This document shows, one piece after another, positions 17,888-37,292 of a stretch of 64,000 nucleotides of DNA. Every line of letters begins with the position of its first letter. Positions within the stretch are counted from its first letter, which is position 1. The translations under genes and the position numbers were made by a program. Below the pieces are notes generated by a model. The model saw only the letters and a list, made by a program, of their open reading frames with translations. It searched no databases and was not told the origin of the DNA. Origin of the DNA: Microcella indica (GTDB taxonomy: Bacteria > Actinomycetota > Actinomycetes > Actinomycetales > Microbacteriaceae); the NCBI RefSeq assembly GCF_013414345.1, contig NZ_CP058670.1:992001-1056000 (forward strand), given 5' to 3'.

Positions 17888-18503
17888 AGGCCCGCTTCGT
17901 GCTCGCGGGCGATGCCGGCCAGCAGATCATGCGGGCGACCGGATGCCCGACTCGACCCCCGGTGCTCTCGAGGTGGTGCCCGTGGCGGAGGGTCGCGAGC
18001 TGCCCGCCCTGCTCACGGCTCTCAAGGCCCACCTGGAGCACTTCGGCCCCGACGAGGTGGTCGTGCTGAGCCCGTTCGGCGATCAGTCGTCGCTCGTGGG
18101 GCGCTTTCTCGCTCGTGAGCCCGCGAACAAGGAGGAGCGGCAGCTGCGCGAGCTGCTGTCGGGGGAGCGCGCGGTCGCGTGGCGTTCCATCTTCAAAGGC
18201 AAGGGTCTGGATGCTGCTGCCGTAGTGCTGACCGACATCACGCCCGACGCCGCGGCCTGGGCCGACGAGCGCCGCCTCAGCTGGAACGACCTGCTCTACG
18301 TCGGCATGACGCGCGCGCAGTACGGCTGCACGGTGCTGAGGTCGCAGGGCGCGCCGTGGAGTGGCGAGCTCGACGCCGAGCTCGGGGCGGCGCGCGTCGA
18401 GGCCGCGCGGCCCGGCGTGCGCGAGGGGATGCGAACCGTCGGCGGTGCGTCGAGTGCTGGCACCGCGGCGGCGATGGCTCGGATGGTGGCGCGCACGGGC
18501 TGA
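17888..18503 (+). pseudogene. Partial, internally deleted copy of NERD helicase
   Basis: The block begins at GGCCCGCTTCGTGCTC, matching the middle of the intact helicase from about 12680, and runs to the homologous C-terminus. Everything before it, including NERD, Walker A and DEFQDV, is missing. Relative to the intact gene a further 148 bases are lost between two copies of GATCATGCGGGCG (12716-12728 and 12864-12876 in the intact gene), leaving one copy here and shifting frame. From 17943 an open frame of 186 codons remains, with the GKGLDAAAVVLTDI and LYVGMTRAQY motifs, but it cannot be an active helicase. Confidence 0.85.
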
Positions 18504-18504
18504 G

Positions 18505-19188
18505 TCACGGCGGGCGAGCTACCTCGACGTGCTCGACGCGCTGCTCGTGGTCGGGCTGGCGCAGTCTCCGGTCTTCATCACCGGAGACTTGGACCACCAG
18601 GTGATCTACCGCCGCCACGAAGGCACCGATGAGGCGACGGATGCTCCGTCCGCCCCGCGCGCAACCATCCTGTGCCGCGTGCCGGGCCTCATGCAGCTGC
18701 GCCTGACCTCGAACGTGCGCACGACTCACGAGGTGGCGCGCTTCGTGGCCGAGCTCATCGGCGAGCCGACCCTCTGCAGCGAGCACTGTCGCAGCGACGA
18801 CGATCAGGTCTCGGTCGAGCGTCACACCTTCGCGACCATGGATGAGCAGCAGCGTCTGCTCGCCGACGCCGTCGAGCGCATCCTGTCGGAGCCGTTCACG
18901 GTGCGCGAGCTGGTGATTCTGTCGCCCTACGCCCGCGAGCGGTCGGCTGCCGGCCAGGCGCTCGCTGACCCGACGGCGGATGCCCGCCTCACCTCACGCC
19001 TCGGTACGAGCATCGACGACGCGACGCGCATTCGGTGGGGGAGCATCCACGAGTTCAAGGGTCTCGAGGCGCCCGCGGTGATTCTCACGGACGTCGACCT
19101 GTCGAAGGGCTACCACCACGATCTGCTCTATGTGGGGGCGTCGCGCGCGACCGATCGGCTGGTGATGCTGGAGGAGCCACTATCCTGA
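18505..19188 (+). pseudogene. C-terminal fragment of a second UvrD-like helicase
   Basis: Directly after the previous remnant's stop, an open frame lacks a sensible start. It reads YLDVLDALLVVGLAQ, then ITGDLDHQVIY (motif III-like), LRLTSNVRTTHEVARFV (motif IV), SIHEFKGLEAPAVILTD (motif V) and LLYVGASRATDRLVML (motif VI). This is the back half of a superfamily 1 helicase of the NERD-helicase type, but from a different paralogue than the gene at 11568. No Walker A exists upstream. It is a remnant, ending just before DUF3223. Confidence 0.75.
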
Positions 19189-19192
19189 CACT

Positions 19193-19876
19193 TCAGATGC
19201 GTTCAGGCATCTCGTTCTTGACGTAGACCGGGTTGGCATTCGTTGCGTAGTACGCCAACCACGCATCACGGAGAGCCTCGTCCTCCACGTCGCGACCAAC
19301 AAAGATGTACCCATTGCCGCTGTGAGTCTCGATCGCGCCCCACCCGCCATGTGCGTCCGCGAACGCCTGCGTCAGCTCGCCCCAGGTGGGTTTGAGGTGC
19401 TGGGTGTCTGCCTGGTGCTTTTGATTGATCAGTTCACCAGTTCGCGCGCAGTACACGGGAGGCATGCCATCAGCGAAGTCTGCATCTCGCCGTCGAATAC
19501 GCCCCGAGTCGAGGGCAAAGGCGAGCGCGCTCTTCACATTCGCCGCCTCCGAGGGGCTGTCGATAACGTGGCGATAGCTCCAGTCTCGTTCCGTGCCATC
19601 AGACCGAACCACGATGATCGCTCTTTGGCTCCGAGACACCGCCTCCTTGCCCGGCAGGCGCCAGGTCTCTTCGACATAGAAGTGGTCGATCCCAGGGCCG
19701 ATCTTCTCCGCAGCATCAGAATGAAGTTCCAGCACCTCACGAAGGACCTGGTCATTCGTCCCTGATGGGATGGGCGTCCTCACCGGGTAAGTGTGGAGGA
19801 TTTCGTCCCGAATGTAGTTCTTCGCCTCGGTTCGGCTTCGAAACGTTCTCGACGGAATCACGAACGGTATTGCCAT
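19193..19876 (-). CDS. DUF3223 (DCL-type) domain protein
   Basis: The protein has 227 residues from ATG 19876. It begins PFVIPSRTFRSRTEAKNYIRD, and the following VLELHSDAAEKIGPGIDHFYVEE and DGTERDWSYRHVID match the DUF3223 (DCL) pattern I recall. The C-terminal half has WGAIETHSGNGYIFVGRDV. In bacteria such genes often sit in defence or mobile regions; in plants DCL is linked with plastid rRNA maturation. No mechanism is visible. It is the last gene of a leftward three-gene run, 7 bases after the XRE-ImmA gene. Confidence 0.6.
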   Translation of the reverse strand: MAIPFVIPSRTFRSRTEAKNYIRDEILHTYPVRTPIPSGTNDQVLREVLELHSDAAEKIGPGIDHFYVEETWRLPGKEAVSRSQRAIIVVRSDGTERDWSYRHVIDSPSEAANVKSALAFALDSGRIRRRDADFADGMPPVYCARTGELINQKHQADTQHLKPTWGELTQAFADAHGGWGAIETHSGNGYIFVGRDVEDEALRDAWLAYYATNANPVYVKNEMPERI

Positions 19877-19883
19877 CAGGCCC

Positions 19884-20957
19884 TCATTTCATTGCTCGAA
19901 GGTGGGTGTTCTTGGGCTCGGGAAGTCGCGGCAAACTTAGTTCGAATCGCGCAGAGAACTCGTCTTGATTCAGTGCAACCACTCGCGCAAGTTCGTCGAA
20001 CGAGTAGCCATGTTCAGTGAGATGGACAGTAATCAGCGACGACATCACTGTGGGATGGTCGTGCGGCACGTCCACAGGCTCCGCCTTTCGCCAGCCCTTT
20101 TGGGACATAGAGACCATCAGACTCTTGTAACGATTTTCATCAATCACGCCTAGATCTCGAGCACGCCGGATCAATGCACTGATGGCAACGCGCCAGACGA
20201 CCTTCAATTGCGCGGCGCGCGCGAGAGTGATTCCCTTCAACGCGGTACGAATCTCCGCAGCAGGCATCAAGAATTCGGCAGCGAATGAATCCGCCTCTCG
20301 CTCGGCCTCGTCGGTTGTCACCAGCACGGAGTGCATGACGAGGTGACCGAGTTCATGGGCAAGCGTGAATCGCTCGCGATCGGCTGGCAGTCCCTTGTTC
20401 AGGATGATGAGCGCAGGATAAGTCCCGACGTTGTCGAGGCTTATCGCGGCAATCTTGGGGGATTCAAGATTGCCGCGAACCACGATGACTCCGGCAAGTT
20501 CCAGCGCAGCCGCCATGTCGCGAATAGGCCCCATTGGCAGACGCCACAGTGCACGAACCGCCCGAGCGACCTCGGCCGGGCTACCGTGCTCCTCGACGTC
20601 AAGCGACGGCACCACATACTGGGAGTCGATCTCAATCGAGCGCAGCAGCCTATCGAGGCGCATCCGGGTGAGATTCACCTGCGCCTGGATCTTCCGAAGC
20701 GTGGTCTGCGGAAGCGCCTGCTGTTTGCGGTGGTAGAAGGCGGCACTCCCGAAGCCGTAAATCGGGTCTGTCCAGCTGAACGCTTCCAAGGGGTAGTCCA
20801 GCGCATCGGCGAGCTTCTGAAGCCTGGCCTCGTCAATCGCTGCCAATCCATTCTCCATCTTGGAGAGGGTCGGCTGCGGTATTCCAGCCAGCTTCGCGAG
20901 CTGCGCTCCGCTGTATCCCCGTGATTCGCGCAGAAGAGTCAACATCTGCGGATTCAT
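19884..20957 (-). CDS. XRE-family regulator with ImmA/IrrE metallopeptidase domain
   Basis: The protein has 357 residues from ATG 20957. Residues ~4-60 are an HTH_3 domain (LRESRGYSGAQLAKLAGIPQ, then LSKMENG). A helical linker follows, then an ImmA/IrrE (COG2856) domain with the zinc motif FTLAHELGHLVMH and the downstream EADSFAAEFLMP. Such fusions cleave a repressor or sense stress to switch on neighbouring mobile or defence genes. It lies between an unknown gene and DUF3223, and divergently from the mod-res-helicase genes. It is a plausible regulator of both arms; that link is inference from position. Confidence 0.85.
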   Translation of the reverse strand: MNPQMLTLLRESRGYSGAQLAKLAGIPQPTLSKMENGLAAIDEARLQKLADALDYPLEAFSWTDPIYGFGSAAFYHRKQQALPQTTLRKIQAQVNLTRMRLDRLLRSIEIDSQYVVPSLDVEEHGSPAEVARAVRALWRLPMGPIRDMAAALELAGVIVVRGNLESPKIAAISLDNVGTYPALIILNKGLPADRERFTLAHELGHLVMHSVLVTTDEAEREADSFAAEFLMPAAEIRTALKGITLARAAQLKVVWRVAISALIRRARDLGVIDENRYKSLMVSMSQKGWRKAEPVDVPHDHPTVMSSLITVHLTEHGYSFDELARVVALNQDEFSARFELSLPRLPEPKNTHLRAMK

Positions 20958-20962
20958 TGGTC

Positions 20963-21553
20963 CTACCCTTCGACTTCTTCGCGTGCTGCGGGTCGCGTGC
21001 TGCGGACCGGGGGGCCCTGTGGCTGGTCAACGCGAACCGGCAAGACCGGCGCGAGACCCTCATCCCGCAGGTCGATCTGCCAGATGACACGTCCGTCGTA
21101 GGTACAGGCGATCGCGAGCACATCGAGACCGATGCCGAGTTCGTCGGGGAGATACCCGGCGACGATGTAGGTAGCAGCGGTCCCATCGAGAACGACCTGC
21201 TGTAACTCGAACTCGAGGCGCTGCTGGGTCGGGATGCCGGCCGTCCCGAGCTTTCGGCTGCGGAATTTCTTGAAACGAAGGATCAGGCGTCCATCGTCTA
21301 GTGAGACAGTAAGCATCTGCCCCTTGCGGACGGCGGGGATATTCTGTGCGTCGAAGTATGCCTCGGCGTGGAAAGTGATCCGGTCGTAGACCATGTTCGC
21401 TCGGGTGGTTGCTCGCGACGTCGCGAGCATAGGCGCAGCAGCAACCGACTCGTGCCAGTCGACCCAGCCCTGTTCGAGGAAACCACGGAGGGCGCCGAGG
21501 TGAGGCGCGAGGATGGCTTCGGCATCCTGTCGGGAGAGAAGTTCGTCGATCAC
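20963..21553 (-). CDS. Hypothetical protein upstream of XRE-ImmA
   Basis: The protein has 196 residues from GTG 21553. The first half is helical with a Trp-rich VDWHES segment; the second half is strand-rich (MLTVSLDDGRLILRFKKFR and VVLDGTAATYIVAGYLPDELG). It ends in a charged tail. I do not recognise a family. It is separated from the XRE-ImmA gene by five bases, so the two are surely co-transcribed. The strand-rich middle resembles a small beta-barrel or substrate-binding fold rather than an enzyme. Possible roles are a partner or substrate of the peptidase, but nothing in the sequence proves this. Confidence 0.55.
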   Translation of the reverse strand: MIDELLSRQDAEAILAPHLGALRGFLEQGWVDWHESVAAAPMLATSRATTRANMVYDRITFHAEAYFDAQNIPAVRKGQMLTVSLDDGRLILRFKKFRSRKLGTAGIPTQQRLEFELQQVVLDGTAATYIVAGYLPDELGIGLDVLAIACTYDGRVIWQIDLRDEGLAPVLPVRVDQPQGPPVRSTRPAAREEVEG

Positions 21554-21868
21554 GGTCCGATTCTGGTGTATAAATTCTTGCCTGTCAAATATTCGTGAAG
21601 TATTCGGGTGTGTCCAGGACCTGGTTCACCGTTGGTGGGCCGAACTATGAGGGGAGCGCCGCGCCGACGGAATCTGGAACAGGCGCATTAGCAATCAGGG
21701 CCGGCGCGGGTTGTTGCCAAAGTGCTTACAGGACAGCGATCCGCGGGTCGGACTCGTCGATCGATGAAGCTCGCGCGAAGAAATTTGAGCCCTTGTCGTT
21801 GAATAGCCCCGCTTCGGCGCCACACCAAGGTAGGTTCGAATCCAACTAGCTGCACCAGAGGAGAAGTG
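21554..21868. other. Divergent intergenic region with AT-rich stretch
   Basis: This separates the two arms of the defence cluster. The left part (about 21560-21605) is AT-rich for this genome and holds TATTCG twice in direct orientation, a candidate operator or promoter area for the leftward genes. The right end holds the tRNA-like 3' end described separately. I see no open frame worth calling. Confidence 0.45.
21829..21857 (+). other. tRNA-like 3' end (T-arm plus CCA), possible attachment-site remnant
   Basis: GGTAGGTTCGAATCC gives a T-arm with the invariant TTCGAAT loop. It is followed by AAC, a 7-base acceptor-like TAGCTGC, a discriminator A and CCA. The T-stem has one mismatch. I searched the preceding bases for the matching 5' half, which should start GCAGCTA, and found none, so no complete tRNA is present. 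The pattern fits the 3' tRNA fragment left at the edge of an integrated island, or chance. Confidence 0.35.
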
Positions 21869-24007
21869 ATGGCTCGTATTCATGAGCTACTGGCCCAGCT
21901 TCGGGCACAAGCCCCAGCCCTCGCGCAAGATATCCAGCGGGAGGTTGATGCCCTGCAGGATCGTCGTGCATTCGGACTGAATTTCGAGCGGCACGCTCCG
22001 GAAGCGGTTGAGCTACCCGGGCGGCGGGTGCGGGTGGGGGACAAGGTTCGAGTGCTCTCGCCACGCGGTGAGACACCGACCGCCGCCAACCGGTCACTGT
22101 TCCGGGTCACCTCGATCGGACGGAGCGAACGCGGACGGCTTGCGTCGCTAGTGCCTCTTGGTCCCGAGTTCGAGGGCTTGGACGAGGCTGAGATCAAACA
22201 TGCTGTGGCTGTCGATGACCTCGTCGTCGTCGCGGAGTTCCGTGATCCTATCTACCCAGGACTGGTCTCGACCGGCAAGGTCGAGCGCGGAGGTGGGTCC
22301 CAGGGCGAACCCGGCAACAAGCCTTACCACGCGGTCATCAGCGCCGAGAACTTTCACGCCCTTCAGTCGCTGCTATTTACCCACCGGGGCAAGGTTGATG
22401 CAATCTATATCGACCCGCCGTATAACACCGGCGCGCGCGACTGGAAGTACAACAACGACTATGTCGAGGGTGATGACCTTTACCGTCACTCCAAGTGGCT
22501 TGCGTTCATCGAGCGTCGCCTACTTCTTGCCAAAGAGCTGCTGAACCCAGACGACTCGGTTCTCATAGTGACCATCGACGAGAAGGAGTACCTCCGTCTA
22601 GGACTCTTGCTGGAACAGGTGTTCCCCGAAGCTCGAATCCAAATGGCCACAGACGTCATCAATCCGCGCGCGGGTGTCGCGAGACCGGGGGCCTTCACTC
22701 GGACCGAAGAGTACGTTTACTACGTCTTGGTTGGCGAGCAGTCTGCCGTGGTTCCGGCCATTCAGAGCACGGGGGAGCCGCTCCCGCAAAGAAACACGGC
22801 ACCAATCTGGTTCTCGCTTATGCGCACTGGATCTAACAGTGCAAGACGAGACCGACCCAATCTGTTCTATCCCGTGTGGGTTCGTGGAGATGGCTCACTG
22901 CATTCAGTAGGTGACTCCACCCCTCTATCAGTCGAACGAGACTCGGTAACCAAGCCAGACGCTGAAGAAAGTCTTACTGCGGTGTGGCCCATCCGGCCAA
23001 GTGGTGACGAGAACACTTGGCAGCTTGGGCCAGCGGCACTGCGCCTTGCGCTTGCCGAAGGCACCGCGCGCATCAACGCTTCCGGCTCCCGGTTCACGAT
23101 CAACTATCTCCGAACCGCGGAGAAGAAGCGGATTGAGGCCGGTGAAATCGAGGTTCTTGGGAAGGACGAACGGGGTGCACTCATTCTTCGTCACAAGGAA
23201 GGTGTTGTGCGAATGACTGCACCGCGATCCGTATGGCAACTCCGCTCTCACGATGCGGGCCTATACGGGTCGTCCCTTCTTTCGGCTCTCATCCCAGGAC
23301 GGAAGTTTCCATACCCGAAGTCCCTCTACGCAACCGAGGACGCTCTGAGGTTCGTCATTGGTGCGAAGCCTGAAGCGATAGTTGTGGACTTCTTCTCCGG
23401 CTCTGGCACGACTGCCCATGCGGTTATGCGCCTAAATCAGCAGGACGAGGGCCGCCGCGTTTCAATCTCGATCACGAACAACGAGGTCAGTGCCGACGAA
23501 CAGGCGGATCTGACGAAAGAGGGCTTCCGTCCTGGGGACCCAGAGTGGGAGCGCTGGGGCATCTGCGATTACGTGACCAAGCCGCGAATCCGCGCAGCGA
23601 TAACTGGAACCACCCCCGATGGCCGCGATGTATCGGGCGACTACAAGTTCGCACATGAGGCCCCGATGGCCGACGGCTTCGAGGAGAATGTGGAGTTCTT
23701 CACCCTCACATATGAGACCCCGATGCGGGTGCAGTCGAATCGAGAGTTCTCGCGGATCGCTCCCTTCCTATGGCTACGCGCCGGGTCGCGTGGCAGACGA
23801 ATCGACTCACTTGTCAACGGGTGGGACGTCACTGACGCGTACGGGGTGCTTGAAGATCTCGACAGGGCCGACGAGTTCCTCGAGGCGATGAACTCCGCGC
23901 CAGACGCGCGTATCGCGTACATCGTCACTGATGAAGATCGGCTATTCGAAGCAGTTACCCGCGACTTGCCTATTGGGGTCGAGCCCGTCCGTATGTACCA
24001 GTCCTAG
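21869..24007 (+). CDS. mod: Type III-like DNA methyltransferase (Mod)
   Basis: The protein has 712 residues from ATG 21869, with AGAGGAG upstream; GTG 21866 is an alternative adding one residue. Motif IV is DPPYNTG near residue 185, and motif I, FFSGSGTTAHAVMRL, lies downstream near 510. This order marks beta-class N6-adenine methyltransferases such as Mod subunits. The middle between them would carry target recognition. The N-terminus has a helical LLAQLRAQAPALAQ segment. The gene precedes res by 38 bases on the same strand. It should set the specificity and methylate the host sites. Confidence 0.85.
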   Translation: MARIHELLAQLRAQAPALAQDIQREVDALQDRRAFGLNFERHAPEAVELPGRRVRVGDKVRVLSPRGETPTAANRSLFRVTSIGRSERGRLASLVPLGPEFEGLDEAEIKHAVAVDDLVVVAEFRDPIYPGLVSTGKVERGGGSQGEPGNKPYHAVISAENFHALQSLLFTHRGKVDAIYIDPPYNTGARDWKYNNDYVEGDDLYRHSKWLAFIERRLLLAKELLNPDDSVLIVTIDEKEYLRLGLLLEQVFPEARIQMATDVINPRAGVARPGAFTRTEEYVYYVLVGEQSAVVPAIQSTGEPLPQRNTAPIWFSLMRTGSNSARRDRPNLFYPVWVRGDGSLHSVGDSTPLSVERDSVTKPDAEESLTAVWPIRPSGDENTWQLGPAALRLALAEGTARINASGSRFTINYLRTAEKKRIEAGEIEVLGKDERGALILRHKEGVVRMTAPRSVWQLRSHDAGLYGSSLLSALIPGRKFPYPKSLYATEDALRFVIGAKPEAIVVDFFSGSGTTAHAVMRLNQQDEGRRVSISITNNEVSADEQADLTKEGFRPGDPEWERWGICDYVTKPRIRAAITGTTPDGRDVSGDYKFAHEAPMADGFEENVEFFTLTYETPMRVQSNREFSRIAPFLWLRAGSRGRRIDSLVNGWDVTDAYGVLEDLDRADEFLEAMNSAPDARIAYIVTDEDRLFEAVTRDLPIGVEPVRMYQS

Positions 24008-24045
24008 CTTTCCAACTTTGAGATCGACGCGATGCGGAGAGTCCG

Positions 24046-26664
24046 ATGAAATTCTCGCTGAAGGACTATCAGCGCGACGCGGTTATTCAGGTGCTTGACA
24101 ACCTTGAGCGCGCGAAGAGGAAGTACCACGAGGACCACAAAGAGACCTCTTTCACGCTTACCGCGACGACGGGCGCGGGCAAGACCGTGATGGCCGCCGC
24201 GGCGATCGAGGCGCTCTTCTATGGAAACGACGAGCTTGATTTCGACCCCGACCCGGGCGCTGTAGTCATCTGGTTCTCGGACGACCCGAACCTCAACGAT
24301 CAGACCCGCATGCGGCTCATGCAGGCCTCCGAGAAGCTCGACCACAGCCGACTCGTGACTATCGAGTATCCCTTTTCCATGCCGCAGCTCGAGGCGGGCA
24401 AGGTGTACTTCTTGAACACCGGAAAGCTCACCGCAAACTCGAGACTCACGCAGAAAGCTGCCCGAGCTCGCGCTGTTGAGGCGACCGGGCAGTCGTCCTT
24501 CCTCGCCCCTGACGACCTTGCGTGGACGATTTGGGAGACTCTCGCGAACACGATCGACGATGACGGGCTGTCTGTCTACTTGGTCATCGACGAAGCACAC
24601 CGCGGCTTCAACACAAGGGCTAGCAGGGACAAGCCGACGATCGTCAAGGGCCTCGTCGACGGCACCGAGACCGGTCTGCCAATCCCGGTCGTTTGGGGCA
24701 TCTCTGCAACGAGCAAGCACTTCGACGAGGCAATGAGCGAGGCAGACCTGGCCGCCGAACGGGAACAGCTGCCAGCCGTCACCGTCGACCCGGCCCGCGT
24801 CCAAGCGTCCGGCCTCATCAAGGACAAGATCGTCCTCGATATCCCAGCTGAAGCCGGCAACCTTGCGACCGCGCTCGCGAGTCACGCCGCCCAGAAGCTT
24901 AAGCACTCAGCCGACCGCTGGGGGAAGTACCTCGAGGCGCAGGCGAAGCTGCCGGGCGAAAAGTCGCCCGAGGCGGTCGTGCCGCTCCTTGTCATGCAGA
25001 TCCCGAACGACGCTGCCGAGGAGCATCTCGACGAGGTCGGCCTCTGGCTCGACACGATCGCAGCTGGCCTCGGTGACATCAGCTCGATCCATGTCCGCCA
25101 CGTGCTCGGCGACCACAGGACGATGACGTTTGGCTCCTGGGACGTTGAGTGGATTGAGCCACAGCGAGTTCAGGAGGCCACCCAGGTTCGTGTCCTCATC
25201 GCGAAGGACGCGATCTCGACTGGCTGGGACTGCCCGCGGGCCGAAGTTCTGCTGTCGTTCCGGCCGGCGAGGGACCACACACACATCGCGCAGCTCCTCG
25301 GCCGGATGGTCCGCACCCCGCTCGCACGCCGCATCCCCGGTGACGAACGACTCAATTCCGTCGACTGCATCCTGCCGCATTTCGACCGCACCACCGCGGG
25401 CAATGTTGCGAAGTTCCTGACAGGCCTCATCGACGAGATGCCCGGAGGGCCAACGATTGAGGTGTTGCTCGATGGGCGCGAGCTCGCGCCGAATCCGCAC
25501 GTGCCCGCCGCGGTTTGGGAGCGCCTCGACGCTCTGCCGTCGTACGTCGTACCGCAGCGCGGCGCACGGCCTGTCAAGCAGTTGGTGAGCCTCGCGCAGG
25601 CGCTCGCTGCCGATGGGCTGAAGGGCGGCGCGATCAAGTCGGTGGAGAAGCAGATGCATATCACCCTTGATGGCTTCGCCGAGCGCTACGACGGACAGCT
25701 GCGAAATGCCGAGGTTGAAGTGCGCACCGTCCGAGGAATGTCGATCGCCGGACGATTCGGCGGCGACAAGCTCACTTACGCCGACTTCACGATTCGGGCA
25801 GACGAGCGGGCGATCCGCGTCGCATTTGAGGATGCAAAGCGTGCCTTCGGTGCGGACATTGCACAGTCGTACGTTGACCACCTCGCTGGCGAAGATGACC
25901 CGGACGCGGACGACGATGGCCTTCGCGGCGCCTACGTGAGGGCCGCGGCACTAGCGACTATCGCGATCGTGCGCGAGAAAGTGGACGTCGCAGCGAAGGA
26001 CCTCGTCGACGAGTGGTTCGCCGACCATCGCGTGGCACTTCTTGGCCTCTCCGACGAGAGACGAGAGGTGTACGACGAAATTCGCGCACAGGCTGTCGAA
26101 CCGCAGTTGCAGCCTCTCCACCGGCCACGAAACCGTATGGCCGACTTCAAGGAGCTCGATGGCGACCAGATACGTGACGCGGATACGATAGACAAGCATC
26201 TGATGTCGGACGAGGCTGGCTGGTACCCGATCACGAAGCTGAACGACTGGGAGAAGGCGGTCATCCAGAAGGAGGTTGCCCGCCTCGATTGCGTCGGCTG
26301 GTACCGAAACCCTTCTGTCTCCTCCGCCGATTCCCTCGGCGTCACATACCGCGACGGGGTCGGCAACTGGCGTGCCATGCATCCAGACTTCATGCTCTTC
26401 AACGACGTAAATGGTCAGATCAAGCCGTCCATCGTTGACCCTCACAGCACCCACCTCGATGACGCGTTAGTGAAGCTGAGAGGCCTCGCGGGATACGCGC
26501 AGACGCACGCCAACGACTTTCATCGGATCGACTCAATCGCAAACGGGACAGGTGGCGAACTCCGCGTCCTCGACCTGAAGGACGAGGCAGTCCGAGACTC
26601 GGTCATGCACTCGAAGCTCTCCGCCGCCGAAATCTTCGCCGCCCAAGGGAGGAAGTACGCGTGA
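24046..26664 (+). CDS. res: Type III-like restriction subunit, DEAD/DEAH helicase (Res)
   Basis: The protein has 872 residues from ATG 24046. It begins FSLKDYQRDAVIQVL. Walker A is ATTGAGKTVM near 40, and the DEAH box is LVIDEAHRGF near 179. A superfamily 2 C-terminal helicase part follows, with TGWDCPRAEVLLSFRPARD and QLLGRMVRTP. The C-terminal region has HPDFMLFND and then IVDPHSTHLDDALVKLRGLAGYA, the position where Res proteins carry a PD-(D/E)XK nuclease. Here DPH replaces the expected ExK, a form I have seen in this subfamily but whose cutting ability is uncertain. It overlaps the next gene by 4 bases. Confidence 0.8.
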   Translation: MKFSLKDYQRDAVIQVLDNLERAKRKYHEDHKETSFTLTATTGAGKTVMAAAAIEALFYGNDELDFDPDPGAVVIWFSDDPNLNDQTRMRLMQASEKLDHSRLVTIEYPFSMPQLEAGKVYFLNTGKLTANSRLTQKAARARAVEATGQSSFLAPDDLAWTIWETLANTIDDDGLSVYLVIDEAHRGFNTRASRDKPTIVKGLVDGTETGLPIPVVWGISATSKHFDEAMSEADLAAEREQLPAVTVDPARVQASGLIKDKIVLDIPAEAGNLATALASHAAQKLKHSADRWGKYLEAQAKLPGEKSPEAVVPLLVMQIPNDAAEEHLDEVGLWLDTIAAGLGDISSIHVRHVLGDHRTMTFGSWDVEWIEPQRVQEATQVRVLIAKDAISTGWDCPRAEVLLSFRPARDHTHIAQLLGRMVRTPLARRIPGDERLNSVDCILPHFDRTTAGNVAKFLTGLIDEMPGGPTIEVLLDGRELAPNPHVPAAVWERLDALPSYVVPQRGARPVKQLVSLAQALAADGLKGGAIKSVEKQMHITLDGFAERYDGQLRNAEVEVRTVRGMSIAGRFGGDKLTYADFTIRADERAIRVAFEDAKRAFGADIAQSYVDHLAGEDDPDADDDGLRGAYVRAAALATIAIVREKVDVAAKDLVDEWFADHRVALLGLSDERREVYDEIRAQAVEPQLQPLHRPRNRMADFKELDGDQIRDADTIDKHLMSDEAGWYPITKLNDWEKAVIQKEVARLDCVGWYRNPSVSSADSLGVTYRDGVGNWRAMHPDFMLFNDVNGQIKPSIVDPHSTHLDDALVKLRGLAGYAQTHANDFHRIDSIANGTGGELRVLDLKDEAVRDSVMHSKLSAAEIFAAQGRKYA

Positions 26665-29462
26665 CCATGCCAGCTTCGATTGGATTCACGACTGCCCAGG
26701 CGGACGCAATATCTGAGGTGTCGAACCCCCTGCAGCTCATCGCCTGCGCCGGATCTGGGAAGACCGAGGTGCTCGCCCAACGGATCGCGAACATCCTCCA
26801 GCAGCCGGGCGTTCAGCCAAGGAACGTCATCGCCTTCACGTTCACCGAAAAAGCCGCGGCAGAGTTGAAGGAGCGCATTCACCGCACGGTTAACGCGGCG
26901 ATTCCGGACATAGTCGGCATGGCCGAAATGTACGTCGGCACCATGCACGGCTATTGCCTCGACATGCTCCAGACGTACATACCAGAGACATTCAAGTACG
27001 GAGTGCTCACCGACATTACGCAGCAGCTGCTCATCGATCGGATGAGTGTGAAGTCTGGGCTCACCACCTGCACAAAGGCCGTCGGCGGTACCGTCTCCAC
27101 ATTGTCCCGATTCAAGGACACCCGCTACTACAAGGGCGCACTATCTATCCTTCAGGAAGACGACGTCACCTTCGGGCTAGTACCTGACGCGGTCAAAGCT
27201 TCGCTCGCGTCGTATCAGAATCTGCTGACTGAGCAGCGCTACTTCGACTACACGTCGATGATGGTCGAGGCCGTCCGGTTTCTGGAACGATCTCAGACTG
27301 GCCCGATTCTTGACACAGCAGAGCAGTCTTTGCGGGATCACATTGAGCGCGACGTCAAGTTTGTGATCGTTGACGAGTACCAGGACGTAAATCCGATCCA
27401 AGAGAAACTCGTCCAACGACTCGTTCACTTTGGCGCGAACCTCTGTGTCGTTGGTGATGATGACCAGACGATCTATCAATGGCGTGGATCCGAGGTGCGC
27501 AACATCATTGACTTCACCTCCCGATATGCGGGCGTGCGGTCCATCCGACTCGAAGAGAACTTCCGCTCCTCGAAGGGCGTTGTCGAGCTCGGCCGCTCGG
27601 TGGCCGAGAGGCTTGACTCTGCCGAGCGGCTGCCGAAGAAGATGCTTTACGCCTCTCACCAGACCTGGGAACGCGGGGACATGCTTGCCCTCCAGTTCGA
27701 GGACGCCCGCGAGGAGGCTGCCTGGATCGCCGAGCGGATCCAGGACCTTCAGGGGCTGCCGTTTCAGGATCGCCCCACCAGCGAACCTCGTGGCCTCTCA
27801 TGGTCCGATTGTGCGGTCCTGTTCCGGTCGGTGAAGGACGCCGACGCACTAGTTGACGAGTTCCGCCGACTGAATGTTCCCTTCATCATCAAAGGTCTTG
27901 CGCGGCTCTTCGATGGAGTCGAGATTCAAGCCTGCGTGGGGATCTTCCGTTACGTGCTCGGGAAGATTGGCGAGCCTGAGCTGCGTGACCTGTGGGATGC
28001 GGCATCGCTCATTCCGGGCCCGTCTCTCTGGCCAGGCGCCATGAAAGTTCTCGATGACGGCGCCGACTTCACAAGGAGCACCGCGTGGGGCGCCTACAAC
28101 ATCCAGCGGCTGTTCCTGAAGTTCCTGGAAGCTCTCGACCTTCACGAAGGAACGATCGCTCCTGCGGACTCGAGACGGGCCGAGCTTGTCATGTACCAGC
28201 TCGGCAAGTTTTCGCAGGTGATTTCCGATTTCGAGGCAATCCATTTCTCCTCAGACCCCGCGCGCAAGTACGAGTCCTTCGAGGGATTCCTGACCTACCA
28301 AGCCCCGAACGTCTACGAGGAGTCGGACGAAGACGCCGGCTATGTCGCTCCCGACGCCGTAGTGATCTCCACCGTTCACCGCGCCAAGGGACTCCAATGG
28401 CCAGCTGTCTTCGTGCCGTTTCTTCGCGCCAACCGCTTCCCAATGAAGGCGCCCGGCGGAACGCAAACGATCCCACACATCATTCCGATCGAAGCGGTTC
28501 CGAACGGTGCTCGATACAAGACGAACCGGTCGGACGAGACGCGACTCTTCTACGTCGCGGTGACCAGGGCCCAGAAGTACCTTTACTGCACCTACTCTCC
28601 AGGCGACTCGGCCATGTATCGACGAGCCTCTGAGTTCTACCTTCACTGCACCGCTTCAGCTTGGATGTCCACAACTGACGAGGGGCTTCCCACCGCGGTT
28701 CGACTCGACCCGACGCCCAAGAGGGATACCCCCAACATCGGGGTGTCGTTCTCCGAACTGAAGTACTTGATCGAATGTCCCTACCAGTTCAAGCTCCGAT
28801 TCATGTACGGCTTCAATCCGCCAATTCATGAGGCACTCGGCTACGGCAAGGGGCTCCATGACGCTCTTGCCGAGATGCACAAGAGGGCGCTTGCTGGCGA
28901 TGTTCCTGACCGGTCAGAGGCGGAGTCGCTCGTTGACCGACACCTGCACACTCCGTATGCCTACCCGACGCTTCGAGCGGAGCTCCGACGCGCAGCAGTC
29001 GATGCCGTCGAGCGTTACTTCGACCGGCATGGTGCAGATCTCACGCGAACAATCCACTCTGAGAAGGTCATCGAGGTCGAGATTTCTCCCGGCGTCACCG
29101 TCAACGGTCGTATCGACCTGATCAAGTCACTTGAGACCGGTGAGACTGCAATCGTGGATTTCAAGTCCACGAAGGATTCGCAGTCAGAGAGTGTGACAAG
29201 GGACCAGCTGTCGATCTACGCGCTTGGCTACCAACAGCTCACTGGAGAGGACGCTGATCGCGTTCAGATCCTGAACCTCGATGATCAGGGCAAATCCACC
29301 AACGATCCCGTGAGCCCTGACCTCGTAGCTGCCATCAAGGCGAAGGTTGATGGTGTCGCCGAGGACATCCGAGCAAATCACTTTGCCTGTGATCACGATC
29401 ACGCGAAGGAGGCCGCCTTTGACGACTTGGTGTGGCTCACGGCAGGTGGTCAGTCCTTCTGA
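26661..29462 (+). CDS. UvrD/Rep-family helicase with C-terminal PD-(D/E)XK nuclease
   Basis: The protein has 933 residues from GTG 26661; ATG 26667 is also possible. Superfamily 1A motifs are complete: ACAGSGKTEVLAQRI (Walker A), FVIVDEYQDVNPIQ (II), VVGDDDQTIYQWRG (III), STVHRAKGLQWPAVF (V) and LFYVAVTRAQKYLY (VI). The last ~220 residues are a RecB-like nuclease: LIECPYQFKLRF, then NGRIDLI, then IVDFKST and a Gln/Tyr helix. A four-cysteine iron-sulfur set is absent. The overlap with res indicates one operon. Such a helicase-nuclease is not a normal type III subunit and may degrade cut or unmodified DNA. Confidence 0.85.
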   Translation: MTMPASIGFTTAQADAISEVSNPLQLIACAGSGKTEVLAQRIANILQQPGVQPRNVIAFTFTEKAAAELKERIHRTVNAAIPDIVGMAEMYVGTMHGYCLDMLQTYIPETFKYGVLTDITQQLLIDRMSVKSGLTTCTKAVGGTVSTLSRFKDTRYYKGALSILQEDDVTFGLVPDAVKASLASYQNLLTEQRYFDYTSMMVEAVRFLERSQTGPILDTAEQSLRDHIERDVKFVIVDEYQDVNPIQEKLVQRLVHFGANLCVVGDDDQTIYQWRGSEVRNIIDFTSRYAGVRSIRLEENFRSSKGVVELGRSVAERLDSAERLPKKMLYASHQTWERGDMLALQFEDAREEAAWIAERIQDLQGLPFQDRPTSEPRGLSWSDCAVLFRSVKDADALVDEFRRLNVPFIIKGLARLFDGVEIQACVGIFRYVLGKIGEPELRDLWDAASLIPGPSLWPGAMKVLDDGADFTRSTAWGAYNIQRLFLKFLEALDLHEGTIAPADSRRAELVMYQLGKFSQVISDFEAIHFSSDPARKYESFEGFLTYQAPNVYEESDEDAGYVAPDAVVISTVHRAKGLQWPAVFVPFLRANRFPMKAPGGTQTIPHIIPIEAVPNGARYKTNRSDETRLFYVAVTRAQKYLYCTYSPGDSAMYRRASEFYLHCTASAWMSTTDEGLPTAVRLDPTPKRDTPNIGVSFSELKYLIECPYQFKLRFMYGFNPPIHEALGYGKGLHDALAEMHKRALAGDVPDRSEAESLVDRHLHTPYAYPTLRAELRRAAVDAVERYFDRHGADLTRTIHSEKVIEVEISPGVTVNGRIDLIKSLETGETAIVDFKSTKDSQSESVTRDQLSIYALGYQQLTGEDADRVQILNLDDQGKSTNDPVSPDLVAAIKAKVDGVAEDIRANHFACDHDHAKEAAFDDLVWLTAGGQSF

Positions 29463-29690: not shown

Positions 29691-31115
29691 GGCTCTTCGC
29701 AATCAAGCGGGTAGGTGGGGTCTGAATCCGCCGCTTTCGAGCAGGCTGCGGGCGATGTAGTTGCTGAGGTTGCGGAAGCCGAGCGCACTGCCGCGGAGGT
29801 GTTCGAGTCGGCCGTTGATCGCCTCGGTTGGACCGTTCGAGGTGCCGGGCAGGTCGAAATAGGCCAGCACGTCGCCGGCGCGGCGATGCAGGGTGCGGCC
29901 GAGCTTGCCCAGCTCGACGAGGACTTCGGGAACGCCGTGACGCAGCGAGTCGATCACCGCTTGCAGGGCTCGGCGCCCGGCGGCTCGGTCGGGGTGCCGG
30001 TAGGCGGCGACGATGCTCTGGTAGACGGCCCAGGTGGTCTCGACCTCGACATGCTCGTCGATGGCGAACACCGCCTCGATGCGGGCGCGCTGTCGGTCGG
30101 TGAGGAACGCTTCCCCGGTGTGCAGGGCGCGGCGAACACCATAGAGCGGATCGCCGGCGTGGCCGCGGTGGCCGAGGGTGTGCTGTTGGACGCGTTGCCG
30201 GGTGCGGTCGAGGGCGTCGCCGGCGAGCTGGACGACGTGGAACGGGTCCATCACCTCGATCGCGTCGGGGAGGGCTTCGGCGGCGGCGGTCTTGAAGCCG
30301 GTGAACCCATCCATCGCGACCACCTCGATCCCGGCCCGGAACGCCGGGGACTGCTGCTCGAGCCAGGTCTTGAACACCGGCTTCGATCGGCCCTCGACCA
30401 TGTCCAGCAGCCGCGCCGGACCCGTCCCGTCACGCACCGGGGTCAGGTCGATGACCACGGTCACGTAGCGGTCCCCGAACCTCGTGTGCCGCCAGACGTG
30501 TTCATCGACACCGATCACGGTGACCCCATCGAAGCGGGCCGGATCGCCGATCAGCCTCCGACGGCCTTCCTCCAAAACAGCACTGTTGGCCGTGTGCCAG
30601 GACACCCCGAGCCGAGCTGCGACTCGGCTGATCGTGAGATGGTCCACGACGAGCGCGGTGAGCGCCCAGGTGAGCGCTCCACGGGACAGCTTCGACCTCG
30701 GCTCAGCCGCCGCGGTGCTGTCCTGCCGCCACGACCTGCCGCATCCCGAGCACCGGTAGCGGCGCACCCGCACCAGCAACGTCGTCGGCCGCTCGCCGAA
30801 CGGGACATGCGCGAGCCGTCTCGCCTCGGTGCCGCGCGAGACACCCTCCGCCCCGCACCACCGGCACCACTGGTCCGGCTCCACGATCCGGCACTCCAAC
30901 ACCGCCCGATGTGCCTCGATCCGCTGCCCGGCGACCACGAGTCCGAGCTCCTCGAGACGGCAGAAGACAGTCAGATCGGCGGGGTCGAAGGTAGCGTTGA
31001 GCACGTCGAGGTCTTTCTCGGATGGTGAGCCTGAAGAACTTCCATCCTGGAAGACCTCGACCCTGTCTCCAGACCCCGACGCGCTACCGACCTACCCCCT
31101 CAACTGCGAAGAGCC
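29691..31115. mobile_element. ISL3-family insertion sequence A, complete, with 8-bp target duplication
   Basis: Terminal inverted repeats begin GGCTCTTCGCA at 29691 and end TGCGAAGAGCC at 31115; a second block, GGGTAGGT, is shared further in. GCATTCGG occurs at 29683-29690 and 31116-31123, an exact 8-base target duplication as expected for ISL3. One transposase gene fills the element. It lies between the helicase-nuclease gene and the broken M48 gene, so it interrupts no recognisable reading frame. Confidence 0.9.
29703..31004 (-). CDS. ISL3-family transposase A
   Basis: The protein has 433 residues from ATG 31004. Residues ~47-50 and 85-88 form two CxxC pairs (CRWCG and CSGCG), an N-terminal zinc ribbon. 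A helix-turn-helix follows (LTISRVAARLGVSWHTANSAV), then the DDE catalytic core with VIGVDEHVWRHTR, VVAMDGFTGF and VMDPFHVVQ, and an Asn/Glu ending SNGPTEAINGRLEHLRG. All catalytic blocks typical of ISL3 (DUF4096/transposase 12) are present, so it is probably active. It is clearly related to but not identical with transposase B. Confidence 0.92.
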   Translation of the reverse strand: MLNATFDPADLTVFCRLEELGLVVAGQRIEAHRAVLECRIVEPDQWCRWCGAEGVSRGTEARRLAHVPFGERPTTLLVRVRRYRCSGCGRSWRQDSTAAAEPRSKLSRGALTWALTALVVDHLTISRVAARLGVSWHTANSAVLEEGRRRLIGDPARFDGVTVIGVDEHVWRHTRFGDRYVTVVIDLTPVRDGTGPARLLDMVEGRSKPVFKTWLEQQSPAFRAGIEVVAMDGFTGFKTAAAEALPDAIEVMDPFHVVQLAGDALDRTRQRVQQHTLGHRGHAGDPLYGVRRALHTGEAFLTDRQRARIEAVFAIDEHVEVETTWAVYQSIVAAYRHPDRAAGRRALQAVIDSLRHGVPEVLVELGKLGRTLHRRAGDVLAYFDLPGTSNGPTEAINGRLEHLRGSALGFRNLSNYIARSLLESGGFRPHLPA

Positions 31116-31332: not shown

Positions 31333-32771
31333 GGCTCATCCCAATCGGGGGTGTAGGAGTTGGGGTCTGAAGCCGCCGGTCTCGAGCAGGCTTCGGGCGA
31401 TGTAGTTGGTCAGGTTGCGGAACCCGAGTGCGGAGCCGCGCAGGTGTTCGAGCCGTCCGTTGAGCGCCTCGGTCGGCCCGTTGCTGGTGCCGGGTCGTTC
31501 GAAGTAGGCGAGCACGTCAGCGGCTCGCTTCTTCAGGGTCCGGCCCAGGGTGGTGAGCTCGGTGAGCACCTTGGGGACGCCGGCGCTGAGGTCGGTGATC
31601 AGCTTCTCCATGAGCTCGCGGCCACGTTGCCGGTCCTCGTGGCGATAGGCGGCGATCATGCGCTGGTAGACACCCCAGCTCGCCTCGACCTCGACGTGAG
31701 CGTCATCAATGAACAGCGCGCGTAGCCTGTCGCTCTGCTTGTCGGTGAGCAGGTCCGCGCCGGTGTGCAGCGTGCGCCGCGACTTGTAGAGCGGATCGTC
31801 CCTGAACCCACGGTGCCCGTGGATCGCGAGTTGGACCCGGCGCCGGCACCTGTCGAGGGCGTCACCGGCCAGGCGCACGACGTGGAAGGGATCCATCACC
31901 GTGACCGCGTCCGGGATCTCCTCCGCAGCGGCGGTCTTGAACCCGGTGAAGCCGTCCATCGCGACCACCTCGACCGCGTCACGGAAGGCGTCGTCGCGGT
32001 CGGCGAGCCAGGTCTTGAACGCCGCCTTCGACCGGCCCTCGACCATGTCCAGCAGCCTTGCTGGGCCGGCGCCATCGCGGACCGGGGTGAGGTCGATGAT
32101 CACGGTGACGTACTTGTCGCCACGCCTGGTGTGGCGCCAGACGTGCTCATCGACGCCAATCACCTTCACGCCCGCGAACCGCGTGGGGTCGTTGATCAGC
32201 AGCCGCTTGCCTTCGGCCAGGACCGCGTTGTTGGCGGTGTCCCACGCGACCCCGAGTCCCTCGGCGACACGGGCGACGGTGAGGTGTGCGACCACGATCC
32301 CTTCCAGCGCCCACCGCAGCCCGGTGCGCGAGAGCTTCGCGCGTGGCTCCGCCGCGGCGCTGGTGTCTTGGCGCCACACGTGTCCGCAGTCTGCACAGCG
32401 GTAGCGGCGCACTACAACTTCCAGCACGGTCGGTCGCCAGCCCAGCGGCTCGTGGGCCAACCGCCGGATCACGGTGTCACGAGCGGCGCCTTCGCTGCCG
32501 CACCGCCGGCACCACTGATCTGGTTCCACCACGCGGCACGCGAGGACCGCACGATCCGGTTCAAGTCGTTGCCCGATCACGCTCAGACCGAGGCCGTCGA
32601 GTCGAGCGAAGGCGGTCAGGTCAGGGCGGCCGAAGCCGGGCGGCGGGGTAGCGTCGGGCACGTCGAGGTCTTTCCGATGGATGGCGTAGGAACCTCCATC
32701 GTCGGGAGACCTCGACGTCTATCTGCGGACCGACGCGCCCGGCCGACCTACACCGTCATCTGAGAAGACCC
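31333..32771. mobile_element. ISL3-family insertion sequence B, complete, inside M48 gene
   Basis: Ends are GGCTCATCCCAATC... at 31333 and the reverse complement of GGGTCTTCTCAGATG... at 32771. They agree at about 17 of 25 positions, with GGTGTAGG shared further in. CTGAATCG flanks both ends (31325-31332 and 32772-32779), an 8-base target duplication. The element carries one transposase. It separates the last 54 codons of an M48 peptidase from the rest. Confidence 0.9.
31336..32661 (-). CDS. ISL3-family transposase B
   Basis: The protein has 441 residues from ATG 32661. It has the same build as transposase A: a CxxC zinc ribbon (CRRCG, CADCG), an HTH (LTVARVAEGLGVAWDTANNAV) and the catalytic blocks VIGVDEHVWRHTR, VVAMDGFTGFKTAAAEE, VMDPFHVVRLAGDALDR and SNGPTEALNGRLEHLRG. 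Many positions differ from A, so the two elements are separate family members rather than a recent tandem copy. The gene appears intact. The stop lies only three bases from the element end. Confidence 0.92.
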   Translation of the reverse strand: MPDATPPPGFGRPDLTAFARLDGLGLSVIGQRLEPDRAVLACRVVEPDQWCRRCGSEGAARDTVIRRLAHEPLGWRPTVLEVVVRRYRCADCGHVWRQDTSAAAEPRAKLSRTGLRWALEGIVVAHLTVARVAEGLGVAWDTANNAVLAEGKRLLINDPTRFAGVKVIGVDEHVWRHTRRGDKYVTVIIDLTPVRDGAGPARLLDMVEGRSKAAFKTWLADRDDAFRDAVEVVAMDGFTGFKTAAAEEIPDAVTVMDPFHVVRLAGDALDRCRRRVQLAIHGHRGFRDDPLYKSRRTLHTGADLLTDKQSDRLRALFIDDAHVEVEASWGVYQRMIAAYRHEDRQRGRELMEKLITDLSAGVPKVLTELTTLGRTLKKRAADVLAYFERPGTSNGPTEALNGRLEHLRGSALGFRNLTNYIARSLLETGGFRPQLLHPRLG

Positions 32772-36600: not shown

Positions 36601-37292
36601 CTGAACCGATCGACGGCAGCGCCCTCGGCTACCTCAGCGAGGGGCACGACGTGCTGCCCGAGGAGTTCGGCTACTTTCTTGCCGAGACCCGCCGACTGCA
36701 TCCCGCCCTCGTCGAACCCGTGTCGCTGCTCAGCTACGAAGGCCAGTTGTTCGCGCACGAGAGCACCTCAGAGCGACGGCTCGAGGGCGTCGCGCCCGGG
36801 CTGCACCCCGTGCCCGTCGAGCACCACGGCAACGCCACCGAGTCGGTCGACGAAGCCGACGAGGTCGTGCGCCTCGTGCAGCAGCACCTCGGCGCAGCGT
36901 GGTTCGACGGCGAGCAAGTGGGTGCACCCACACGGCCCCTCGAGAGCCGCGACATCATCGTCGTCACCCCCTACAACGCGCAGCAGCAGACCATCCGCGA
37001 ACGGCTCGACGCCGCCGGGCTGCACGACACGCGCGTCGGCACCGTCGACAAGTTCCAGGGGCAGGAAGCCGTCATCGCGATCGTCTCGCTCGCCGCCTCG
37101 AACTCACGTGACGCACCCCGCGGCATGGAGTTCCTCCTCAACCGCAACCGCCTCAACGTCGCTATCTCGCGGGCCCAGTGGGCGGCCTACCTCGTGTACT
37201 CACCCGGGCTGCTCGACTCGCTGCCCGCCACACCAGGGGGAGTCGCCGAGCTCAGCGCCTTCATCCGCCTCACCGAGGAACGGCCCGATTGA
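33669..37292 (+). CDS. TM0106-family RecB-like nuclease fused to superfamily 1 helicase
   Basis: The protein has 1207 residues from GTG 33669 with GAGGAG six bases upstream. The N-terminal ~250 residues are a RecB-like nuclease: TSASDLSRAAECEFAV, FVGYADFLVRMPDG, QDSKLARRAKVTALLQLAAYAEQ, and a Cys cluster CRSCAWCEHE near 240. The middle has YFDFEGDPLYAE (DEDD-like RNase H fold, TM0106 type). The C-terminus is an Upf1-like helicase: [10 protein letters not shown] near 820, DEAGQFSLA near 938, GDPQQLPQVSQGTHP and DKFQGQEAVIAIVS. The family is common in actinobacteria and presumed to process DNA ends or RNA-DNA hybrids. Confidence 0.85.
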   Translation: MYLTMNEHGERLLVTSASDLSRAAECEFAVARDLDARLGRLPAVEQPHDAMLERTSTMGDAHEAAIIADYRARADHPDDVLEIDRADSAELDAIEPYAEQTLDALRRGVPVIVQATFVDRDHNTGESGDLPIAFVGYADFLVRMPDGAYRVQDSKLARRAKVTALLQLAAYAEQLERLGIPVDREVELILGNRERSIHRLDDIAPVLRARRARLHQLLRDRHAADAPIAWRDPSVTYCRSCAWCEHEIAAYDDVSQVAGLNGAQWTKLGTAGIETLAQLAESRGPVEGIAASTLDTLRLQAELQRHAAGAEPGTAPPVRVRDPAVLHALPAPSAGDLYFDFEGDPLYAEHDPARWGLDYLFGMVDTESQFTAYWAHSFADERDVLLDFLADVQALRALHPDLHVYHYAAYERTHLRSLSARHGVGEEVVDEWLRSGLLVDLYPVVRKALRVGSPSYSIKYLEPIYWPEAREGAAVARGDDSVAEYVRSRELRAAGDTAAAQQILDDIGDYNRVDCVSTLRLASWLRELAAEHPAPAPALLDDDAVDDGPDIDDSPLRSALLELAANADGTPATEPDRSPEQRALAYAAAAIDYHRREHKTYWWEHFDRLVAPLDDWADVRDVFTVAPDAPHESTPWSKTGKQRSLRRTLTLYGTWAPGSRPTVGGMSGPFAVYDQPAPMPSSNRDRLARSTRSVSIAAVADDHVVVTETLSDGVDEYDDLPVALTPGPPPPAGQQKPAIEEWGAALLDAASTTLPEEWPRDAATDLLRRVRPRIQDAPEGTVFDCRWPGMAARPAEGHYMIATVVAHLLDLDRSYLAVQGPPGTGKTYLGSHVIATLVREHGWKVGVVAQSHTTVEHVLTGVVQAGLDGRRVGKAPKGGGDPADYATARWTVLGKADQLASFTADRAVDGHGGYVIGGTAWDFANPKRAGRRSLDLLVIDEAGQFSLAATIAASMSAKNLLLLGDPQQLPQVSQGTHPEPIDGSALGYLSEGHDVLPEEFGYFLAETRRLHPALVEPVSLLSYEGQLFAHESTSERRLEGVAPGLHPVPVEHHGNATESVDEADEVVRLVQQHLGAAWFDGEQVGAPTRPLESRDIIVVTPYNAQQQTIRERLDAAGLHDTRVGTVDKFQGQEAVIAIVSLAASNSRDAPRGMEFLLNRNRLNVAISRAQWAAYLVYSPGLLDSLPATPGGVAELSAFIRLTEERPD

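Follow-up and report, generated by a model that had tools for sequence, protein, structure and literature searches.

Two gene sets that look like defense genes and diverge from one intergenic region raise the question of whether they form one system or two neighbors. We addressed this question for a locus of Microcella indica (assembly GCF_013414345.1, contig NZ_CP058670.1), which lies in a stretch of 64,000 nucleotides (contig positions 992,001 to 1,056,000, forward strand; hereafter the window, whose numbering is used throughout). A preliminary description had read the locus as a seven-function set, joining a type III-like mod-res pair, a UvrD-type helicase-nuclease and an XRE-ImmA arm. We find instead that it consists of two independent modules, namely a rightward mod-res-uvrD restriction–modification (RM) operon (21855 to about 29690) and a leftward RosmerTA-like cassette (19193-21606) made up of P196, which encodes a protein of 196 residues, an XRE-ImmA gene and a DUF3223 gene. 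With moderate confidence we propose that Mod and Res would break unmodified DNA and that UvrD would degrade the ends as an optional finishing enzyme; the enzymatic activities, the end degradation and the role in defense are all predicted from sequence.

Two modules in one intergenic setting

The window’s list of open reading frames (ORFs) confirmed six genes between 19193 and 29462 (Table 1). Gene positions, domain names, the 4-base overlap of res with the helicase gene and the DPH in Res, all noted in the preliminary description, were borne out by the ORFs, by Pfam, PADLOC and NCBIfam scans and by alignment. The ORFs go beyond chance, since each module has relatives in the same order elsewhere and the res-uvrD overlap is kept at all five loci that carry the mod-res-uvrD trio.

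Table 1 Features of the two modules and their positions in the window.
Feature	Position	Strand	Evidence
DUF3223 (HamC/DCL-like) gene	19193-19876	-	Pfam DUF3223 51 bits; PADLOC HamC 153 bits
XRE-ImmA gene (RmrA-like candidate antitoxin)	19884-20957	-	Pfam HTH_3 and Peptidase_M78; PADLOC RmrA 198 bits
P196 gene (candidate toxin partner, leftward cassette)	20963-21553	-	No Pfam, PADLOC or NCBIfam matches
Cassette’s own upstream element, TTGACA ... AATTTATA	21554-21606	-	Aligned in three genomes; promoter-like scan hit
mod, 713 residues, type III-like beta-class amino-methyltransferase	21866-24007	+	Pfam N6_N4_Mtase; PADLOC MTase_III PDLC03645
Target-recognition region of mod, residues 251-500	22616-23365	+	Exchanged relative to same-genus genome G012
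res, 872 residues, superfamily 2 (SF2) helicase/type III Res-like subunit	24046-26664	+	Pfam ResIII 44 bits
Non-canonical nuclease-like motif of Res, P780 D781 ... D798 P799 H800 ... D806 ... K810	26383-26475	+	Alignment
res-uvrD overlap, 4 bases	26661-26664	+	Identical in 5/5 trio loci, window included
uvrD, 933 residues, superfamily 1 (SF1) UvrD-type helicase with predicted RecB/Cas4-like PD-(D/E)XK nuclease	26661-29462	+	Pfam; tree; active-site residues
PDDEXK_1 nuclease domain of uvrD, residues 695-912	28743-29396	+	Pfam; conserved active-site residues
C-x-H-D-H (C910, H912, H914) replacing three C-terminal iron–sulfur (Fe-S) cysteines	29388-29402	+	Clade alignment

The modules dissociate in both directions. 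On the one hand, nothing in the stretches fetched for the four remaining trio loci matches the P196/XRE-ImmA/DUF3223 arm, and P196 was found in none of nine genomes chosen for carrying the Res or UvrD family. On the other hand, no Res or UvrD relatives were detected at the cut-offs used in genomes G680, G546 and G252 (none of these genome searches, that for P196 included, had a positive control genome alongside), and G680 carries the arm. The borders of the modules are likewise separate: the DNA homology of the leftward arm ends at 21606 (G680) and 21605 (G546), about 50 bases upstream of P196, and that of mod to G012, a second genome of the genus, and to the Microbacterium locus L022 begins at 21855-21858. 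In G012 an ietAS pair (L032:14937-18621; 439 and 755 bits) occupies the divergent position upstream of mod that the cassette fills in the window. This two-way separation led us to reject one seven-function system with the ImmA arm as a part of it; the genes present are six. Weak XRE/ImmA matches (28-43%) do lie near three relatives, none of which has P196: a 28% match about 1.3 kb past uvrD at L046, an HTH-sized match at L047, and at L033 a match of 32% that covers part of the protein and lies about 2 kb from res. Such gene types thus meet in defense regions, not as the set first described, and a common intergenic region in a defense island should be taken with caution, as it does not equal one system.

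The helicase-nuclease recurs in different RM operons

The exact trio was found at five loci, namely the window, L022 (Microbacterium oleivorans), L023 (Microbacterium sp. 69-10, with mod split over two frames), L026 (M. bovistercoris) and L032 (G012). The join of the helicase-nuclease to mod-res is therefore recurrent, and the exact trio is confined to the window’s own genus and Microbacterium. The constant 4-base overlap suggests that translation of uvrD may be coupled to that of res; mod and res also overlap by 4 bases at the other four trio loci, and are separated by 38 bases in the window.

The wider UvrD family has a broader range. Queries with UvrD alone (E-value cut-offs of 1e-60 for the order and family, 1e-110 for the phylum and 1e-20 for plasmids, where the best 30 of 261 rows were used and the three best records kept) found 21 loci. 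Sixteen of these were informative, since at L024, L025 and L047 the 5' part of uvrD is missing and L051 and L062 are short contigs. RM genes occur in the fetched flank of 12 of the 16, a count that is not phylogenetically independent, excludes the window (given) and L032 (found via Res), and becomes 12 of 18 if L025 and L047 are counted as lacking RM genes. The neighbors include type III pairs with the DPH-type Res (L022, L023, L026), pairs with a Res of the BPTD_3080 type (L040, L045 and L046 in the order res-mod-uvrD, and L059 on the opposite strand), a type III pair with a canonical endonuclease domain (L057) and, by record annotation, type II systems with MspI-like or MvaI/BcnI-like enzymes and a C5-methylase (L027, L028). 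At two further loci the methylase alone was recognized, as an adjoining N6/N4 methylase (L029) and as a type IIG/ISP-like methylase 5.6 kb away (L041). The helicase-nuclease, truly linked to mod-res as first described, is thus a recurrent RM accessory that occurs with at least four kinds of RM system. Two copies are broken: uvrD of L040 is interrupted by an in-frame stop and by inserted DNA of about three genes, and that of L047, short of its 5' part, adjoins an integrase-core gene. In a tree of 24 rows the window falls in a fully supported clade of eight (100/100). L059 and L057 belong to a supported group of four far from it, which indicates that the link between UvrD and type III systems arose, or was kept, more than once.

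The UvrD family is rare at these strict cut-offs, being present (own genome included) in 3 genomes out of 396 for the order, 4 out of 398 for the taxonomic family and 9 out of 396 in the phylum sample, and a search of genome contigs with the UvrD protein gave five close relatives. Among the best 30 of 261 plasmid rows, only two records have a UvrD relative that spans 80% or more of its length, and the 40 plasmid records that match Res include neither of them. At L058 the UvrD-nuclease relative follows directly downstream of a homologue of TmtA (1214 bits), and no RM genes were seen.

These data bear on the idea that UvrD is an independent defense gene which hitchhikes in defense islands and is co-transcribed here by chance. 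Such a gene would agree with the many Mod-Res loci that lack UvrD and with the four of 16 informative relatives whose flank shows no RM gene, including the one beside TmtA, but the identical overlap at five of five trio loci, the repeated association with different RM types on the tree and the joint conservation of UvrD and Res at 97% while Mod diverged (see below) all speak against it, and we regard it as decidedly improbable.

Res carries an invariant, non-canonical motif

Res shows a ResIII match and SF2 helicase motifs, with Walker A and DEAH kept across 14 aligned Res proteins, and is encoded next to mod, as expected of a type III system. In other respects Res departs from the type: neither the window Res nor the five plasmid relatives scanned has a Pfam match to the RE_endonuc domain (PF19778), a sequence search of the PDB detected no relatives, and where a canonical PD-(D/E)XK motif is found in type III Res there is PD...DPH...K. 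We therefore name the locus type III-like.

On a model drawn from the preliminary description, the DPH would mark a lost nuclease, UvrD would cut in place of Res within one machine and the ImmA arm would act as its switch. Such compensation would be in keeping with the missing RE_endonuc domain, with the BPTD_3080-type Res that accompanies the same UvrD clade and is also off ExK, and with the weak ImmA/XRE-type matches near L046, L047 and L033. Against it, all seven residues of the motif are invariant in the 14 aligned Res proteins (window included), nine of which come without this UvrD (eight plasmid records and genome G087, with no full-length relative in the record or genome). The plasmid collection holds 40 records that match Res, 28 with nearly the whole of it; in the eight loci examined, mod or a fragment of it lies directly upstream every time (unannotated and in two pieces at L017, its 3' part only at L018) and none of the eight has a UvrD gene; a UvrD-family profile run over the eight whole records at E <= 1e-60 gave no matches. 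Among 99 near-kin genomes (own included) Res was matched in five, and of the other four only G012 has an adjoining UvrD, with G087, G030 and G094 showing only generic helicase matches to about the first 430 positions of the UvrD profile.

The second Res family beside this UvrD clade, BPTD_3080 (L045, L046, L040 and L059, all above the family cut-off), reads PD...E(V/I)S in four of four, as EVS or EIS, and is present in 33 nearly whole copies on plasmids. At least 31 of these 33 copies lie in records that lack a UvrD relative spanning 80% or more of its length, given that just two plasmid records among the best 30 of 261 rows have one. Conversely, the UvrD of L057 stands beside a Res with an RE_endonuc domain and a canonical PD...ETK. 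UvrD is therefore not tied to a broken Res, because DPH is normal for UvrD-less pairs, BPTD_3080 is common without UvrD and L057 has both UvrD and an intact motif. Since the supposed ImmA switch also separates from the RM genes both ways, we reject compensation, the least probable of the readings discussed here; of the rivals it is the one most weakened by the DPH result. PD...D...K could plausibly serve as a variant active site in which the lysine has shifted to the helix that follows. The C-terminal quarter of Res (residues 631-853) is also related to E. coli YagJ at 38% identity (E. coli plasmid records H34-H39); yagJ may be what is left of this domain or a version of it that stands alone.

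A helicase-nuclease with intact motifs and a probable change of metal site

UvrD matches UvrD-helicase (PF00580, 191 bits), UvrD_C (PF13361, 117 bits) and PDDEXK_1 (PF12705, 79 bits), and its nearest PDB sequences are PcrA/UvrD helicases. The 19 full-length family members (window included) share C706, H733, D819, D833, K835, Q849 and Y853 without exception, and with these motifs intact both helicase and nuclease activity are predicted. The C terminus is where the window’s clade differs. A set of four Fe-S cysteines is known from AddB and Cas4 (PMC7430649) and is a signature of those nucleases rather than a stated criterion for UvrD-Cas4 proteins. Its C-terminal CxxC...C triplet is kept by all 12 full-length members that fall outside the clade. 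Within the clade the first cysteine, C706, is retained and the triplet is replaced by C-x-H-D-H in 10 of the 11 members whose 3' end was read, these being seven whole proteins including the window’s, the ends of L024, L025 and L047, and a 3' piece of L040, which lacks it. We read this clade-wide replacement, which is new here, as a probable change of metal site, and it gives a clear biochemical prediction.

The host encodes, elsewhere in its genome, a protein that closely matches chain B of PDB 6ppr, which we take to be AdnB (6ppr and 6ppu presumably being mycobacterial AdnAB). UvrD accordingly looks additional to repair, and we hold a plain host repair enzyme to be unlikely. A related proposal is that UvrD serves self-protection, mending or resecting chromosomal breaks inflicted on the host by its own RM system once methylation fails, rather than attack. 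Its architecture, like that of RecB/AddB/AdnAB-type end-processing enzymes, would suit this, and a RecB/AddB-like recombination role is suggested in PMC5704561. The AdnB-like protein elsewhere in the host (by our identification of the PDB entry) and the tight coupling of uvrD to res count against it, and we judge it unlikely.

Mod has diverged in its target-recognition region

Mod matches PADLOC MTase_III PDLC03645 with 833 bits over residues 2-712, and EcoP15I Mod (E 4e-21) and Mbo45V (E 3e-23) in the PDB. Its motifs follow the type III order of the beta class, with the catalytic motif IV (DPPY, residue 183) before the S-adenosylmethionine (AdoMet) motif I (FFSGSGTT, residue 509) and the variable recognition region (251-500) between them. 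Compared with G012, this region is 28-54% identical and the remainder of Mod 62-90%, despite Res and UvrD being about 97% identical; at the DNA level homology resumes at 23306 and extends to 29689. This is what an exchange of the target-recognition region between two species would look like, with the pair of putative effectors, Res and UvrD, kept. The replacement of the recognition region with Res and UvrD conserved is new here, and a compact trio with so close a relative makes the role of the helicase-nuclease directly testable.

Proposed course of events and points against it

In the proposed reading, Mod would methylate an asymmetric site. Mod-Res would recognize the site when unmethylated, its SF2 motor would find a second site, and the DNA would be broken; in order to cleave, type III enzymes require ATP and a pair of unmethylated sites in inverse orientation. 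UvrD, as a 3'-5' helicase of its family with a RecB/Cas4-like nuclease, would then load on the new ends, unwind and degrade them, so that the invader’s cut DNA could be neither rejoined nor repaired. The finishing role is suggested by the gene coupling (overlap in five of five), the intact motifs and the association with RM genes. UvrD would be optional, as the same Mod-Res family occurs without it and the UvrD family plugs into type II, III and IIG/ISP-like RM loci. In the cassette, a chance neighbor on this reading, P196 would be the toxin, XRE-ImmA the antitoxin and repressor, and DUF3223 an accessory. In the usual description, RM systems cut DNA and RecBCD-like host enzymes deal with the remainder. 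The recurrence of this helicase-nuclease in several RM operon types suggests that some of them bring their own end-degrading enzyme.

Several observations weigh against this proposal. The exact trio turned up nowhere but in the window’s genus (window and G012) and in three Microbacterium records, and four of the informative UvrD loci (L058, L060, L061, L063) have no RM gene in the flank. The helicase is both dispensable and rare, judging by the 28 Res and 33 BPTD_3080 plasmid records as against two with UvrD (best 30 of 261 rows). Cleavage by Res is itself uncertain given its odd motif. An AlphaFold2 model of the C-terminal 233 residues from a four-row alignment reached a mean predicted local confidence (pLDDT) of 58, with residues 141-233 at 64-92 in blocks of ten; Foldseek returned no matches for the modeled domain at E <= 0.001, and its weak list has Hjc, Cas4, AddAB, HincII and SwaI alongside unrelated folds. 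With a moderate model, no significant fold match and a mixed weak list, the nuclease fold of Res is putative. Looser ties among these gene types are indicated by an Azospirillum DUF3223 context (L067), where a gene of the ImmA type is found at a distance of about 1.2 kb, and by a Streptomyces plasmid (L068:5899-9373) where the DUF3223 gene is directly followed by a UvrD-domain protein of 804 residues, which lacks the PDDEXK_1 domain and resembles the window’s UvrD over 77 residues only.

A further arrangement would make the three proteins one machine, in which Mod-Res, with its odd PD...DPH...K, would deliver or nick the DNA and UvrD, having exchanged its Fe-S cluster for a Cys/His (possibly zinc) site, would degrade it, the same effector having been passed between two type III Res families. 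We think this rather improbable.

The leftward cassette

P196 matched nothing in the Pfam, PADLOC or NCBIfam scans, and its AlphaFold2 model, built from the single sequence, was left unused (mean pLDDT 34). Its gene adjoins the XRE-ImmA gene at all five other loci read (L030, L031, L071, L075, L076). RosmerTA systems pair RmrA-like antitoxins with varied toxins (PMC10440598), and as XRE-ImmA matches RmrA models, P196 is a candidate toxin. The P196 and XRE-ImmA pair also occurs on plasmids of Rhizobium (L031) and Klebsiella (L030, where it is broken), with no mod-res in the fetched stretch. P196 was found in 4 of 299 family genomes sampled (own included, one weakly), in 1 of 149 in a separate sample of the phylum, which is the own genome, and in none of the phages searched. 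G680 (L075) has all three genes in unchanged order; identity is 87-89% for P196 and XRE-ImmA and 76% for DUF3223. G546 (L076) has the pair. In G680 the DUF3223 gene matches in two overlapping frames (L075:6499-7178) and may be frameshifted there.

The promoter-like element upstream of P196 has its second hexamer ending 6 bases before the GTG start, and a leaderless message is possible. DUF3223 is present on 16 plasmid records, with mod-res in none of the four contexts read. It is the HamC of Hachiman type II according to PMC8565338. Membership in that system was rejected, as only the DUF3223 gene matches and neither HamA nor HamB is among the families listed for the nine window proteins scanned.

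Relation to known systems

The link between UvrD and RM systems was already described in a computational study of 2017 (Hudaiberdiev et al., PMC5704561). That study reports UvrD-Cas4-like fusions as monophyletic and most often next to type III Mod/Res, otherwise next to Dcm/Vsr, and proposes an ancillary role; a second source also places them in putative defense contexts (PMC7641849). The window’s protein shares their architecture of UvrD helicase and PF12705 nuclease and their main context, and the two relatives here with type II C5-methylase RM genes may be set against the published Dcm/Vsr context. Unlike the proteins described in PMC5704561, the window’s clade has C-x-H-D-H for the Fe-S cysteines, the accompanying Res has PD...DPH...K, and the leftward neighbor is a RosmerTA-like cassette instead of WYL/HTH or Schlafen-like genes. 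Experiments on UvrD-Cas4 in RM loci were not found in the open-licence literature on UvrD, Cas4 and type III restriction.

Murray et al. 2021 (PMC8259958) report an SF2 helicase-like ATPase gene of unknown role on the 5' side of mod in many type III loci. In those loci as in the window, type III mod and res are accompanied by a third gene of the ATPase type; there it is SF2, without a nuclease motif and 5' of mod, whereas here it is SF1, with a nuclease and 3' of res. Mod resembles EcoP15I and Mbo45V in its motif order, but Res, unlike that of those systems, has no PDB relative by sequence and no RE_endonuc. The cassette is like RosmerTA (RmrA/RmrT) in having an HTH-ImmA antitoxin candidate beside a small unrelated partner gene, and unlike it in that P196 matches no scanned model and DUF3223 is added. 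AdnAB, AddAB and RecBCD likewise combine an SF1 helicase with a RecB-family nuclease, though here both lie in a single polypeptide within an RM operon, and the host has a separate AdnB-like protein. Gabija was considered and rejected, as only its GajB-like helicase matches and GajA is not among the matches listed for the nine window proteins scanned (up to 25 rows each for Mod and UvrD).

Neighboring features

Rfam and tRNA scans of the window gave no matches. Directly 3' of uvrD lie two ISL3-type transposase genes (29703-31004 and 31336-32661; Pfam DDE_Tnp_ISL3). Next to the cassette, at about 17925-19188, the 3' part of a gene for a helicase is present as a second copy (UvrD_C_2-type pieces) that looks like a decayed duplicate; it repeats the upstream ORF 11568-13448 with 88% DNA identity over 563 bases. 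Further along, 33669-37292 encodes a protein of 1207 residues with a TM0106-type RecB-like nuclease domain and a helicase part, a homologue of which is also found near the G012 trio (85% over 117 residues).

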